64,000 bases of DNA from Diphasiastrum complanatum (Eukaryota; Streptophyta; Lycopodiopsida; Lycopodiales; Lycopodiaceae). The notes below the pieces were generated by a model. The model had not been told where the DNA came from and ran no database searches. It saw nothing but the letters and a program-made list of their open reading frames with translations. Both the position numbers and the translations under genes were made by a program. Positions 28,901 to 34,900 of the stretch are shown piece by piece (position 1 is the first letter of the stretch; each line of letters starts with the position of its first letter). Location: the NCBI GenBank assembly GCA_029204225.1, contig MU831867.1, forward strand, positions 35,594 through 99,593, read 5' to 3'.

Positions 28901-31900
28901 GTCTCTCTGACATGCAAATTTTAAACCTTGCAAACGAAGATATCTGATTTGGAGCGCAAGGTTGACTTGCCTACGGACAACACCCATCCCATGCCTGCAG
29001 ATGACCTGGGCACACAGTTGATGGCAGAGAGAGAGGGGGAGCTTGCCGAGATGAGAGAGAGAGAGAGCTTGGGCTTGAGCACAGAGAGCCCCCATTGTAT
29101 GAGGCAGATGAGCCAGTGTCAGAGGATGAGCCCATTCGGGTTGTGTTTGCCAGATCAGAGAGGGATGAGGTAGATGATACAGGTGCAGGGCACACGCCAC
29201 GGGCAGGGGTCACAGGTGCATCACGTGGCAGAGGTTGGACACATGGCACAGGTTATACCGGCAGACAGGCAGGGCACACGGGGGGGCCAGTGGCATACCT
29301 ACCTATGTCGACATGATGGAGGAGGCTCTTGATAGAGGGCAGAGTGGTTTAGATGCCGGTCCTGCAGATGTTTGGATGCGTGCAGCACAGAGTCATGGCC
29401 GTTACTACGACAACACACCAGAGGAGGCACCAGATGACTTTGATTGCACAGATTGGGAGGCCATGCAGGGTCTACAGGGTGCACATGATGAGGCACGGGA
29501 TGAGGCTCGGGTTGATTCAGGGGTTGGTGCACAGAATGATTCAGAGGTTGGTGCACAGGATGATTTAGAGGCTGGTGCACAGGATGAGTCCCAGAGCCCA
29601 GAGCATTTGTATTCGGATGCCCAACTGGACGACTTGGTTGCCACATTGGATTCAGAGGCCCAGCAGATGCCGAGTGTCAGGGCGCCCCCATCATCTCTTG
29701 CTAGCATGCCATACACAGAGTCCCAGCCAGAGTAGCCACATGAGGTGCCTACAGTTTCTCCAGCTCCTCAAAGGGTGTATGTGCGTCGCACAGCTCCTCC
29801 AGTGCCATCGATGCCATTTAGGCCTGCAGCCCCTCCATCGCCGTCCACTTCTGCAGCACCAGGTCTCCATGGCAGGCCACCATCTGTGCCCAGGTTTTCT
29901 CTTGCAGCGCCCACATCCACAGTGGCTCCTCCAGTGGTAGCACCCACATCACATCCTCCTTTGGCAGCACCCAGGATGTACCAGTACCAGCCACCACAGC
30001 GCCCCTTTCAGTACATATCGCCACTGTACTCGCCTCCTGCACAGCCAGTTCCTCCACCTGCAGCAGCCCCACGGGCACACACTCCACGAGCTCATCCTCC
30101 TCGCTCAGGTGCATAGGGAGTTCCCTCTTTTGCTTCCCTATCCCAGTCGGCCTCAGCTTGGGCCCAGCCTAGCCAGCCAGGTGATTTGCATGGGGGTGAC
30201 GAGGCATTGACAGCTCCTCTTGTCCGCAAGAGACCAGGAAGGCCCAAGGGTGCACCGAACAAGAAAGGCAAGGCACAGAAACTGCCAGGGAGGAGAGGAC
30301 GACCACGCAGGGCTCCAGGTACAGGTAGAGGTGCAGTATCACAGCCAGTTGGAGCAGGTGTTGTTGGTTTGGCCTGCTTGGGGGCTGATGCGGAGGCTGA
30401 TTGGGAGGATGAGGATGACGAGTCTCCCCCCTCGGATACACAGCCCATGCCAGTTCCAGACAGGCAGAGATATCGGCTACGAGAGTCAGCTCGGGGCCGT
30501 GAGTTGTCTCCAGAGCATTCGTCTGAGTCAGAGCCAGAGCATTGATTGTGGCTCTGTTGTTTTAGTTTCAGTAGTTTGTCTCTAGCAGACGGTCTACCAT
30601 TGTACTCAGATGATTTTTCACATTATATATAGTGTTTGGCCTACATTATTTGATGCACATTGTGCGTATGTCGCTCTGTACATGTGATGCTTTATTTTCA
30701 ATTTTATGTCGAATTCTATGTGCGTGTGGGAATCCTATTTTCATTTAATTTCGTTTGAAGTGAATGCTAGCTTCACATATATGCACCTACATCATGAGCA
30801 CAGCAATCACCCCTACACCCCAAACGACATTTCATAAACACATGTAATACATCTGCATTTAAAAAAATTACAGAGATTGCATCTTACATGACCAGGCTCG
30901 CGTTGCACAAAAAACAACTATGTATATATTCAACCGTTGTATCAAGATAACATCACATATACTGTCACTTTTTTAAGCAGCCATCTAGTTATTTGCTGCA
31001 CCATAAACTGCCGAAAACTACATAGCAATAGTCCGCCACATACGGCTAGACCTTATCTATTCTAAACATCCCTCACTGATCCTCCACCGACTCCTCGCCC
31101 TCGTCTGGTGCATTGTTTTGTCGCTCTTGCTCTGCCTCCCGGTTAGCCCGAGCTGCCTCCTGGTTAGCTCGACGTCTGGCCGCCCTTTCCCTGACCATGA
31201 TGAGCTGCCGTTGTGTGAAATTCATTCCGATCTGCTCATCCAGATCCAGCTCGACAGCGGGGACAGGATCCACAGCGGGGGCGGGTGGCTCCGGTTCCGG
31301 ATTTCTCTGCCGAGTCTGTCGCAGCATCTCTCGGATATCTGCCTCTTGCTTCCGATGTCTCTCGTTGTGCCTTCGGATATCTTCCCAAGCTTCCTCCTGG
31401 CTTCGCCCTCGGCCTTCGATGGTATGCGCTCTGCCATCTCGATCGACCTTCTTCTCACAGCACCCTAGTCCTTGAACACCCTCTCACAGCACCCTGTCTC
31501 TCAAACAGCCTGTCTCTCACAGCCTGTTCTCACAACCTGTCACCGGCTCTCGCTTGCTCTCTCACTGTCTATCACTAGCTCTCTCACAGCCCCTGAAAAT
31601 GCCGACCACAATGGCATTGTGAGTGCCTATTTATCCCCATAGCCTGATCGGCCATGTGGATCCCCATCATCCATCCATGTGCCTCTGTACCTGCCCCCGT
31701 GTGATGCTCCCCCCCTGTGTTGGTCTCCCATTGGGCCCGTGGTCTGCTCACCCACAATGCCCATGTGCCTCTGTACTTGCCCCCATGTGATGCTACCCCC
31801 CTGTGTTGGTCTCCCATTGGCCCCTCGGTCTGCTCACCCGCATTGCCCATGTGCCACAGCACAAGTCCCCTGCATCATGTACTGTACCCTCTTTTTTTAA

Positions 31901-34900
31901 ACCCAGAACCTCTTTTTTTTACTTTTTTTTGTCCTTTTTTGGCAGTTAATATGCAAAAAAAATTATTAAAAATATTTAAAAAAAAAAATATTAAAAATGG
32001 TACCTCCCTGGTACCGCGGTTATGGTGCCGCCCTCAGACCAACGGTACCAGGGCGGCACCACAAAAATAATATTTTTTATTATTATTATTTTTTAATAAA
32101 AAACCCTTTTAACAGGTTAATACAAGGTAAAAAATTCAGGAAAACAAAGGGTTAGGGTTTAGAAAAAAGATCTTATTGTGCAGGGGACTGTACAGGGGGC
32201 ACTGTGGGAGAGCAGACCTTGTGGTCAATGGGAGTGTAGCATGTGGGGGGGCAGCAAATCCGGACAGGTATACCGTCACATGGGCACTGTGGGGGAGTAG
32301 ACCACGAACCCAATCAGAGTGCAGCATGTGGGGGAGCAGTAAATCCGGACAGGTACACCGTCACATGGGCACTGTGGCGGAGCAGACCACGGACCCAATG
32401 AGAGTGCAGCATGTGGGGGAGCAACAAATCCGAACAGGTACACCGTCACATGGGCACTGTGGAGGAGCAGACCACGGACCCAATCGGAGTGCAGCATGTG
32501 GGGGAGCAATACATGGGGCAGGTACAGTAGCACATGGGATCATCAACAAGTGCAAATGGGGAAACAGACTGTGGGGTTAAATAGGCACTCACGAGGCAGT
32601 GAGAGAGCCAGTGAGAGGCTGTGAGAGAGAGCCAGTGACAGGTATCATCAAGAGGCATTATGAGAGGCATTGTGAGAGGCTGTGTCACAGACCCAGTGAA
32701 AGGCTGTGAGAGGGAGGCTGTGAGAGAGCCAGTGAGAGGCTGTGAGAGGCTGTGAGAGCCAGTTCGAGAAACAGGGTGTCGTGAGATGGCGGAGCGCATA
32801 CCACCGAGGCCTGAGGGCGAAGCCAGGAGGAAGCTCGAGGAAGATGTACGAAGGCACAACGAAAGGCATCGGAAGCAAGAGGCAGACATTGCAGAGATGC
32901 TGCGACAGGCTCGGCAGAGAAATCCAGAGCCAGAGCACCCAGCTCCCCCTGTGCCCCCCGCCCCCGCTGTCGAGCTGGATTTGGATGAGCAGATCGGAAT
33001 GAACTTCACATGGCGGCAGCTCATCATGGTCAAGGAAAGGGCTGCCCGCCGTCGTGCTAACCAGGAGGCAGCTCGGGCTAACCGGGAGGCAGAGCGAGAG
33101 AGACAGAACAATGCACCTGACGAGGGCGAGGAGTCAGTGGAGGATCCATAGAAATGTTTAGAATAGATGGGGTCTAGCCGTATGTGGCTGACTATTGTTA
33201 TGTAAGTTTCGGCAGTAGATGAGGCAGCATTTAGTGTCTAACATAGTGTAAAGAACAGCCCTAGCCGTATATGGCGGGAATACGTATTGTAATTTTGATA
33301 CATCTGACGAATTAATGTACGGTGTGTTTTTTGTGCAATGTGTGCCTGGTGTATTGCAATGTAGTATGTGTGTTTATGAAATGCTATGAAGGGGGTTGTA
33401 TTTCTGTGTTGTGCATCTGCTATCAATCTCTGCAGTTGAAACTAATTGTAATTACGCACATACTATTCGAAATAAAATTGAAAACAAAGCATAACAATTA
33501 CAAATCGACAAATACAAAATGTGCAGCGAATAAAGTACGTCCAACACTTAATATAGTGTGGAAAATGGTCTGAATACAGTGTTCGACCATCTGGCCGCCA
33601 AACATGGAACATGATATCAAACTGCTAAAAATAAAATAACAGAGCTACAATCAATGCTCTGGCTCTGACTCAGATGAATGCTCCGGAGACAACTCAGGGC
33701 CCCGAGCTGACTCTCGCAACTGATATCTATGCCTGTCTGGAACTGGCATGGGCTGTGTATCCGAGGGGGCAGACTCGTCATCCTCATCCTCCCAATCTGC
33801 CTCCGCATCAGCCCCCAAGCAGGCTAAACCAACAACACCTGCTGCAGCTGGTTGTGATACTGCACCTCTACCAGCAACTGGAGCCCTGCGAGGTCGTCCT
33901 CTCTTCCCTGGCTGTTTCCGTGCCCTGGCTTTCTTGTTCGGTGCATCCTTGGGCCTTCCTGGCCTCTTGCGGACGAGGGGAACCGTCAATGCCTCATCAC
34001 CCCCATGCAGATCACCTAGCTGGCTAGGTTGGGCCCAAGCTGTGGCCGGCTGGGATAGAAAAGTCAAAGATGGGTGTCCCTGTGCAGCTGATAGTGGAGG
34101 ATAGGTCCGTGGAGTGTGTGCCCGTGGGCCTGCTGCTGGTGGAGGAACTAGCTGTGGAGGGGCTGTCCCTGCAGAAGACAAGTACAGCGGCGATAAGTAC
34201 CGAAAGGGGCGCTGCGGTGGCCGGTACTGGTACATCCTGGGTGCTGCCAAAGGAGGAGCCGGTGCCATGGGTGTTGTCTGTTGAAATAAATGCCTATTTT
34301 GCCCCTTAAGGCTTGTATACTTGTAACTTGTAAGTTGTGCATAAGACATGGGGGTAAAACATTTATGTACATAGTACACCCCACTTGTGCTAATTAGGCA
34401 AGTAAATCAAGTAGGTTAAGGACCCATGTGGGTTCTAGAGCTAGAATTAGCAAGACACCACCTCTATACATAACATGCTATATGTAGCCCAAACTTTGGA
34501 GGGGTTTCCACGCCCTACTACACTTTGAATATTCATTCATGTTGTGTGAGCTTTGGAGTCCTCTCTCTCTTGCTTTTGTGTTCTACTCCATAGCTGGTTT
34601 TCTGAAGCTTTCATAGTGTGCTTACTATGCTGTTATGATACTCCATAGCTAGGCCTTGGAATTTGACACTGTCAAGGGAGGAGGATGTGCCGTGGGTGCT
34701 GTCACTGGAGGAGCCACTGTGGATGTGGGCGCTGCAAGAGAAAATCTGGGCACAGATGGTGGCCTGCCATGGAGACCTGGTGCTGCAAAAGTGGATGGCG
34801 ATGGAGGGGCTGTAGGCCTCAATGGCATCGGTGGCACTGGAGGTGCTGTGCGGCGCACATACACCCTCTGAGGAACTGGAGGAACTGCAGACACCTCGTG

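Follow-up and report, generated by a model that had tools for sequence, protein, structure and literature searches.

Elements of the hAT group, such as Ac/Ds, Tol2 and Hermes, are the textbook one-protein cut-and-paste system. Can a hAT family carry a second gene? This question is raised by a 64,000-nucleotide stretch of Diphasiastrum complanatum DNA (the window; contig C349, positions 35594-99593). A preliminary description of the window had pointed to a reading frame of about 120 amino acids (aa), ORF2, which faces a hAT transposase gene in three copies (A, B and D). The description implied that ORF2 is open in other genomic copies, that its dN/dS ratio (w) is not near 1, and that full-length members possess it; all three points were borne out in the 1.74-Gb assembly containing the window. 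ORF2 is a real second gene facing the transposase gene in a high-copy hAT family, and the earlier interpretation of a two-gene family is supported.

Copies of the two-gene element in the genome

The ORF2 search gave 3734 first-look candidates. The best 150 were scored, and all 150 matched with an E-value of 1.2e-58 or better; 112 of them were stop-free by eye count. The best 150 were likewise scored for a diverged, L030-type ORF2 (3276 candidates), for the transposase domain DUF659 (12220) and for the DUF659 of a second hAT family (7400). These counts refer to places and not to independent insertions, and unplaced contigs may repeat chromosome loci. Twenty ORF2-centred loci of 10 kb were picked by hand from the stop-free matches, ten of a young type and ten others, including L019, the C2 twin of the window. 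In 12 of these 20 ORF2-open loci, the transposase tail, the hAT C-terminal exon, DUF659 and the N-terminal segment were all found on the convergent strand (eye count; the N-terminal query was out of frame in this survey and served as a position marker only). The remaining eight were without some or all of the four markers.

The locus L013 contains an intact element. Its transposase gene has four exons with GT-AG borders and encodes 1336 aa, with a single stop at the end; ORF2 is open over 121 codons and converges on it. Six further loci (L009, L010, L014, L015, L017 and L018) share a unit of about 6.25-6.3 kb with L013 at 98.3-99.8% identity, and L016 matches the unit in two pieces at 97-98%. 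Such near-identical units indicate that the family multiplied recently. The reverse test started from the transposase: 20 young copies, all with a 672-aa open exon 1, were chosen from the 150 scored DUF659 matches, and only the expected ORF2 position was retrieved for each. An intact 121-aa ORF2 was present in 14 of the 20, 11 being identical in protein to that of L013 and three having one difference. Deleted derivatives also occur. Three near-identical 2.6-kb deleted elements stand in a row in L012 (200-9060), each ending in (AT)n; the DUF659 core is gone, and ORF2 is open and 99.5% identical to that of L013.

Selection on ORF2 and on the transposase

Within the window, Nei-Gojobori (NG86) dN/dS over 98 shared codons was 0.15 (A-B), 0.23 (A-D) and 0.31 (B-D). 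The five other frames gave 0.25-2.64. The ORF2 frame was the lowest in every pair, with a narrow margin for B-D (0.31 versus 0.34 in the antisense frame sharing the wobble position). In neutral reshuffling (5000 per pair), so few amino-acid changes appeared at frequencies of 0 (A-B), 0.0024 (A-D) and 0.021 (B-D). The Jukes-Cantor distances of the ORF2 core were 0.138 (A-B), 0.142 (A-D) and 0.122 (B-D), against 0.341, 0.390 and 0.146 for intergenic DNA. Intergenic drift was thus 2.5-2.7 times that of the core for A versus B or D, and hardly above it for B-D. The described contrast between a conserved ORF2 half and drifted flanks therefore holds for A-B and A-D, but is weak for B-D. Three-branch arithmetic on these pairs gave w of about 0.13 (A), 0.19 (B) and 0.51 (D), so that ORF2 of copy D is relaxed.

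The comparison was extended to 23 of 39 ORF2 matches, of which 17 B-type or related copies were compared with L013 and six were of the young type. The set excludes copies with indels or cut ends (including A and D) as well as additional young copies; it contains two near-duplicate pairs, L003/L004 and L019/window B, and four of the 17 have one internal stop. Against L013, w of ORF2 was 0.13-0.21 (median 0.16). The transposase gave 0.20-0.29 for exon 1 (six loci) and 0.33-0.48 for the last exon (nine loci), with matches above 93% identity excluded as young neighbours and with L023 and L024 each pooling two copies. The lower w of ORF2 is owed mainly to its higher dS (0.27-0.51, versus 0.22-0.40 in exon 1), since the dN values overlap (ORF2 0.051-0.077; exon 1 0.052-0.103; last exon 0.070-0.086). 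ORF2 and the transposase are conserved to a similar degree, with no clear advantage for ORF2. In three B-type elements, identity to L013 was 0.87-0.89 for ORF2, 0.86-0.96 for exons, 0.57-0.91 for introns and 0.66-0.68 for intergenic DNA (ORF2 borders off by one base; gaps scored as mismatches). Since introns are often nearly as similar as ORF2, the sharp contrast is that between ORF2 and the intergenic stretch only. Judged by these frames and ratios, ORF2 has been kept open and selected as a protein in recently multiplied elements.

Assignment to the hAT superfamily

Pfam analysis identified DUF659 in exon 1 of L013 (1.5e-40, 138.8 bits; cut-off 34.7) and Dimer_Tnp_hAT in the joined exons 2 and 3 (1.3e-9, 38.1 bits; cut-off 21.4). 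Dimer_Tnp_hAT in exon 2 of window copy A alone stayed below the cut-off (0.011). The N-terminal segment bears Cys and His residues; zf-BED was below the cut-off in copy D (E 0.27) and gave no match in L013 exon 1. The element has short inverted ends, CATAGGTCCC and CATAGTACCC, with variants present. At L016 an 8-bp duplication of the target, GTAAGAGA, flanks CATAGGTCCC...GGGTACTATG. This is one clean case, L016 being the sole copy outside a TA repeat with both ends located; elsewhere the TA-repeat target masks the length of the duplication. The L013 element contains 13 GGTACC motifs, six in the first 86 bp, seven in the last 101 bp and none between, where 1.8 are expected overall.

The domains, the short inverted ends and the 8-bp duplication together bear out the hAT assignment of the preliminary description. 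A CACTA, Mutator-like (MULE) or Harbinger element was rejected, as Pfam shows hAT domains only. There is no MULE transposase domain, and the target duplication is 8 bp in L016, compared with about 9 bp in MuDR/Mutator. The single-gene trait, which is usual for hAT elements and not strictly defining, does not hold here: full-length copies contain ORF2.

The target sites were tallied for 62 matched ends, from L003-L028 and at 51153-51166 and 53499-53509 of the window. Eight (nearly) alternating A/T bases adjoin 51 ends, one of which (L014) looks like a chance match, and five further ends have an imperfect TA repeat outside. The other six are both L016 ends, one L022 end and three matches that lie within repeats. 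Insertion of the family is almost confined to TA microsatellites.

Gene structure and predicted protein

In 12 of 16 scanned copies a TATA box, TAAATAGGCA, lies upstream of ORF2, 85-232 bp from the ATG, and GGGGATAAATAGGCA precedes the diverged ORF2 of L053 (upstream stretch L059). In L059 the frame starts with MARRIPLD and runs into GTGAGC; 110 nt later comes TGTGCAG, after which the conserved core resumes in frame. The stretch upstream of another diverged copy, L054 (L060), has the same layout (MAGCTPTD, GTGAGT, TGTGCAG), without that TATA motif. A phase-0 GT-AG intron is thus predicted at the same place in two diverged families; the common ORF2 types have none there. The TATA box and the predicted intron would fit a gene in the ORF2 direction.

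The 121-aa protein is predicted to consist of two long charged helices and a Pro-rich linker; that of L013 has 24 K/R, 28 D/E and no Cys. AlphaFold2, run on a three-row alignment of window sequences, placed helices at 9-45 and 66-108. The two helices are credible (mean predicted local distance difference test, pLDDT, 81), but their packing is not (predicted template modelling score, pTM, 0.32). The preliminary description recognised no family for ORF2, and the database searches gave the same result. Among nine members searched against Pfam, the best match was Med28 (E 0.075), not convincing, and no Myb model was listed. A single-sequence search of the PDB gave ribosomal protein L13 at best (E 0.063), and a profile search gave a SNAPIN homolog (E 0.12); both were treated as chance. 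Foldseek of the model against the PDB returned 0 matches. Pattern searches found three stretches in viral_contigs and 100 in genome_contigs, with 0 confirmed in either, and nothing was found among phages.

Diverged relatives of ORF2

A second hAT family is present in the window at 40208-43600 (DUF659, 5.3e-25; apparent end CAGACATGAGGG, located by eye). It adjoins TA repeats, and its DUF659 accounts for the 7400 first-look candidate places given above. No convergent gene was recognised in the listed frames of its loci L029-L032, a point that is not settled because their 3' ends were not located. With sensitive tblastn, L030 was found to contain a diverged ORF2 with one stop (about 43% over 103 aa) and L031 a fragment; these pieces fall outside the stretch held in common with L029. 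The genome search with the L030-type ORF2 gave 158 matches, with identities from 100% down to 48% among the matches listed.

Six diverged ORF2 loci were examined with about 4.3 kb downstream of each, this time with the N-terminal query in the correct frame. The ORF2 of L053 is 49% identical to that of L013 over 92 aligned residues, and remains of a convergent transposase follow it (exon 1 80-92% and last exon 41-74% by piece, frames interrupted). L058 holds a piece of the convergent tail, and L056 a convergent N-terminal segment; in L055 the N-terminal segment runs in the same direction as ORF2. Nine aligned ORF2s share 33 invariant columns, including RRHNERH and G.N.T..QL.M..ER...RRA.Q. Pairs of diverged ORF2s mostly have w of 0.3-0.9. 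Diverged copies may be partly decayed, and strong constraint in these pairs is not claimed since some copies are decaying.

Copies of the family in the window

Four pieces of the family occupy the window between 27 and 54 kb. Copies A (+) and B (-) form a tail-to-tail pair; C (-) and D (+) form a head-to-head pair with 14 bp of (AT)n between them. In A, B and D, ORF2 is opposite to the transposase and converges on it at the positions first described. The stop-to-stop distances, put at about 485-530 bp, were measured as 527 (A), 499 (B) and 484 bp (D). The claim of an approximately 120-aa gene in all three copies holds for B, which is intact as described, and not for A, which is frameshifted, or D, which is deleted and has lost its stop. 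Only copy B could therefore make the protein.

ORF2 of copy B (32786..33151, +) is an open frame of 121 codons; an identical copy lies at C2:64567833-64568195, and w against young L013 is 0.13. Its TATA box, TAAATAGGCA, is at 32578..32587 (+), 208 bp before the ATG. The C-terminal part of the copy-B transposase (33651..35083, -, from the ORF listing) contains an insertion of about 420 bp at 34258-34678, and its tail is 84.5% identical to that of copy A. It is truncated at about 35081 by a long terminal repeat (LTR) element of Gypsy type (35081-39700, right end not located), which is marked by the primer-site-like TGGTATCAGAGCC at 35440 and by gag- and reverse transcriptase-like frames.

ORF2 of copy A (31073..31437, -; 365 nt) has a 1-nt deletion near codon 18 and is frameshifted from there, the remaining frame being open; it is 97.3% identical to the young ORF2 of L013. 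Its TATA box is at 31624..31633 (-), 196 bp before the ATG. The copy-A transposase (27314..30545, +) comprises the end of exon 1 with DUF659 (5.9e-31), exons 2-3 and the last exon with the tail. Two premature stops interrupt the last exon (29733 and 30114), and no N-terminal zinc-finger part was found before the copy-A transposase (27314 onward). The tail-to-tail junction of A and B (31990..32070) lies within GGTACC-bearing subterminal DNA, and the outer ends are lost in both copies.

Copy D (51167..53498, +) is an internally deleted element that runs from CATAGG to CTATG and sits within an (AT)n site. The zinc-finger-like N-terminus of its transposase is fused to the last ~60 codons (51354..51898, +, from the ORF listing). 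Its ORF2 (52383..52732, -) has a 31-nt deletion near the N-terminus, and with the stop codon lost it gains five extra codons. The TATA box is at 52858..52867 (-), 135 bp before the ATG, and the 3' GGTACC subterminal repeats and inverted end span 53398..53498. Copy C (49704..51152, -) is limited to the 5' end and the first exon. Tandem repeats of about 86 bp, differing in number among copies, lie between the ORF2 promoter and the 3' end at 31675-31855, 32197-32508 and 53055-53236. The copies are mosaics, since D holds one B-like and one A-like repeat block.

Elsewhere in the window, a young Copia element occupies 746-7176, in which direct repeats of 655 bp, 99.5% alike, flank an open frame of 1322 aa. 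A tRNA scan found 0. Matches for DUF659, for ORF2 of copy B and for the second family recur at 99-100% between C349 and C2:64.56-64.57 Mb, so that C349 appears to be either another haplotype of the C2 region or a recently duplicated copy of it.

Possible roles of ORF2

The reading preferred here is a hAT family with two convergent genes in which ORF2 acts as an accessory transposition protein; we give this role about an even chance. Movement of the family may involve two proteins instead of the customary one. The four-exon transposase, encoded by gene 1, would bind the element ends at the packed GGTACC motifs. ORF2 begins close to the 3' end, behind its TATA box, and points towards the transposase. 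Its product most likely forms a helical homo- or hetero-oligomer, which would aid either insertion or the assembly of the transposase on the GGTACC repeats of the two ends. MURB of MuDR offers a precedent for help in insertion, and by analogy an accessory role like that of mudrB is our best guess. The fuller proposal, a two-protein hAT system that evolved independently of MuDR, En/Spm and Harbinger, with a small two-helix partner of an undescribed family, of an age sufficient for a split into subfamilies about 50% identical (some of them spliced), and with insertion almost confined to TA microsatellites, falls a little short of an even chance.

Several observations weigh against an accessory role. 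ORF2 is damaged in four of the 20 transposase-chosen copies (one stop in L040, L041 and L047; an internal break in L038), and no ORF2 was present at the expected position in the other two, L036 and L048. Derivatives of the L012 type keep ORF2 without the transposase core; their ORF2 DNA could be hitch-hiking or needed in cis. No convergent transposase was found within the fetched stretch in three of the six diverged loci (L054, L055 and L057), and w reaches 0.5-0.9 in comparisons between the most diverged subfamilies, with 1.41 in one pair with few changes. The model pTM is low, ORF2 has neither Cys nor a Pfam DNA-binding domain, and its lower w relative to the transposase reflects mainly dS.

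Other roles were weighed on the same evidence. ORF2 might be an anti-silencing factor like VANC of VANDAL, which would bind the non-coding repeats of the element, remove methylation and keep the element active. This is one of the two main rivals, the other being self-regulation, and seems unlikely. VANC proteins are much larger than ORF2, Pfam offers no convincing match for ORF2, and tandem repeats are common in transposon ends. Yet VANC often targets non-coding DNA made up of tandem repeats, according to PMC5735166; the ~86-bp repeats adjoin the ORF2 promoter, GGTACC arrays stand at both ends, and the family has recently expanded within a large genome. Alternatively, ORF2 might regulate or repress its own element, as a two-helix protein that forms a dimer with the transposase and restrains its activity or sets its timing. 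The helical, charged nature of ORF2, its own TATA box and its retention in L012 and other deleted derivatives would suit this role. Amplifying copies would be expected to lose a self-repressor, but ORF2 is intact in 14 of the 20 young copies, and we regard this role as quite improbable.

The remaining explanations deny ORF2 a role as an element protein. ORF2 might be a captured host-gene fragment (Pack-type cargo) with no role in the element: the capture of genes by plant DNA transposons is well documented, and no relative of ORF2 was found outside the family. Role-less cargo should decay, but ORF2 has the same place, orientation and low w in A- and B-type full-length elements, and no host copy outside elements was seen among the best 150 places per search. 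Captured cargo was rejected on its retention in both types, and is considered very improbable. Finally, the open frame might be untranslated and arise from base composition or from selection acting on an antisense frame or on the RNA. Long open stretches occur in antisense frames too (263 aa in B), and one of these frames has w of 0.25-0.37, for B-D nearly as low as that of ORF2. This antisense frame meets a stop in two of the three pairs, however, the ORF2 frame is always the lowest, and the TATA box and GT-AG intron suit a gene in the ORF2 direction. An antisense or compositional artefact was rejected by the frame-by-frame dN/dS, and an untranslated ORF2 is scarcely credible.

If a hAT lineage maintains a second gene with conservation similar to that of its transposase, two-gene DNA transposons would seem to have arisen one more time, and ORF2 would supply a small partner protein open to testing. 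Since both genes are intact in some young copies, its role in excision, insertion, targeting or escape from silencing is directly testable.

Comparison with known systems

A literature search by title and beginning of abstract, for hAT elements with a second or additional ORF and for hAT elements in lycophytes, found no such case among the papers listed, although absence from print is not thereby established. By their titles, the papers listed for Diphasiastrum with hAT and genome assembly all concern mosses. In the relevant passages of papers containing both "hAT superfamily" and "second ORF", the latter refers to PIF and non-LTR elements.

In MuDR, mudrA and mudrB are convergent. The likeness of the present family is a second gene beside the transposase gene; it was drawn by description. 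MuDR of the maize Mutator system is outlined in PMC8224964 as having two genes and terminal repeats that serve as promoters, with mudrB novel and needed for insertion. As described there, MuDR has ~200-bp terminal inverted repeats (TIRs) and a MULE transposase, whereas this family has a ~10-bp TIR, an 8-bp target site duplication (TSD) and a hAT transposase. VANDAL21/Hiun of Arabidopsis (vanA, vanB and vanC) is likewise described as a DNA transposon that has additional ORFs and whose non-coding DNA contains tandem repeats, as found here; its transposase is of MULE type, and ORF2 was set beside VANC by description only. Intact PIF/Harbinger elements share the arrangement of two ORFs, in the accounts given in PMC10741241 and PMC2528002. 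They differ in their Myb-like protein and 3-bp TSD, ORF2 here matching no Myb model. In its relevant sections, PMC10741241 sets PIF/Harbinger with its two ORFs apart as "unlike other DNA transposons", while MULEs too may have several ORFs. Its hAT section describes a transposase only and a typical length below 5 kb. With Ac, Tam3, hobo and other hAT elements, the family shares a DUF659/Dimer_Tnp_hAT transposase, a short TIR and an 8-bp TSD; it differs from hAT elements as described in that section by its length of 6.25 kb and its two genes.

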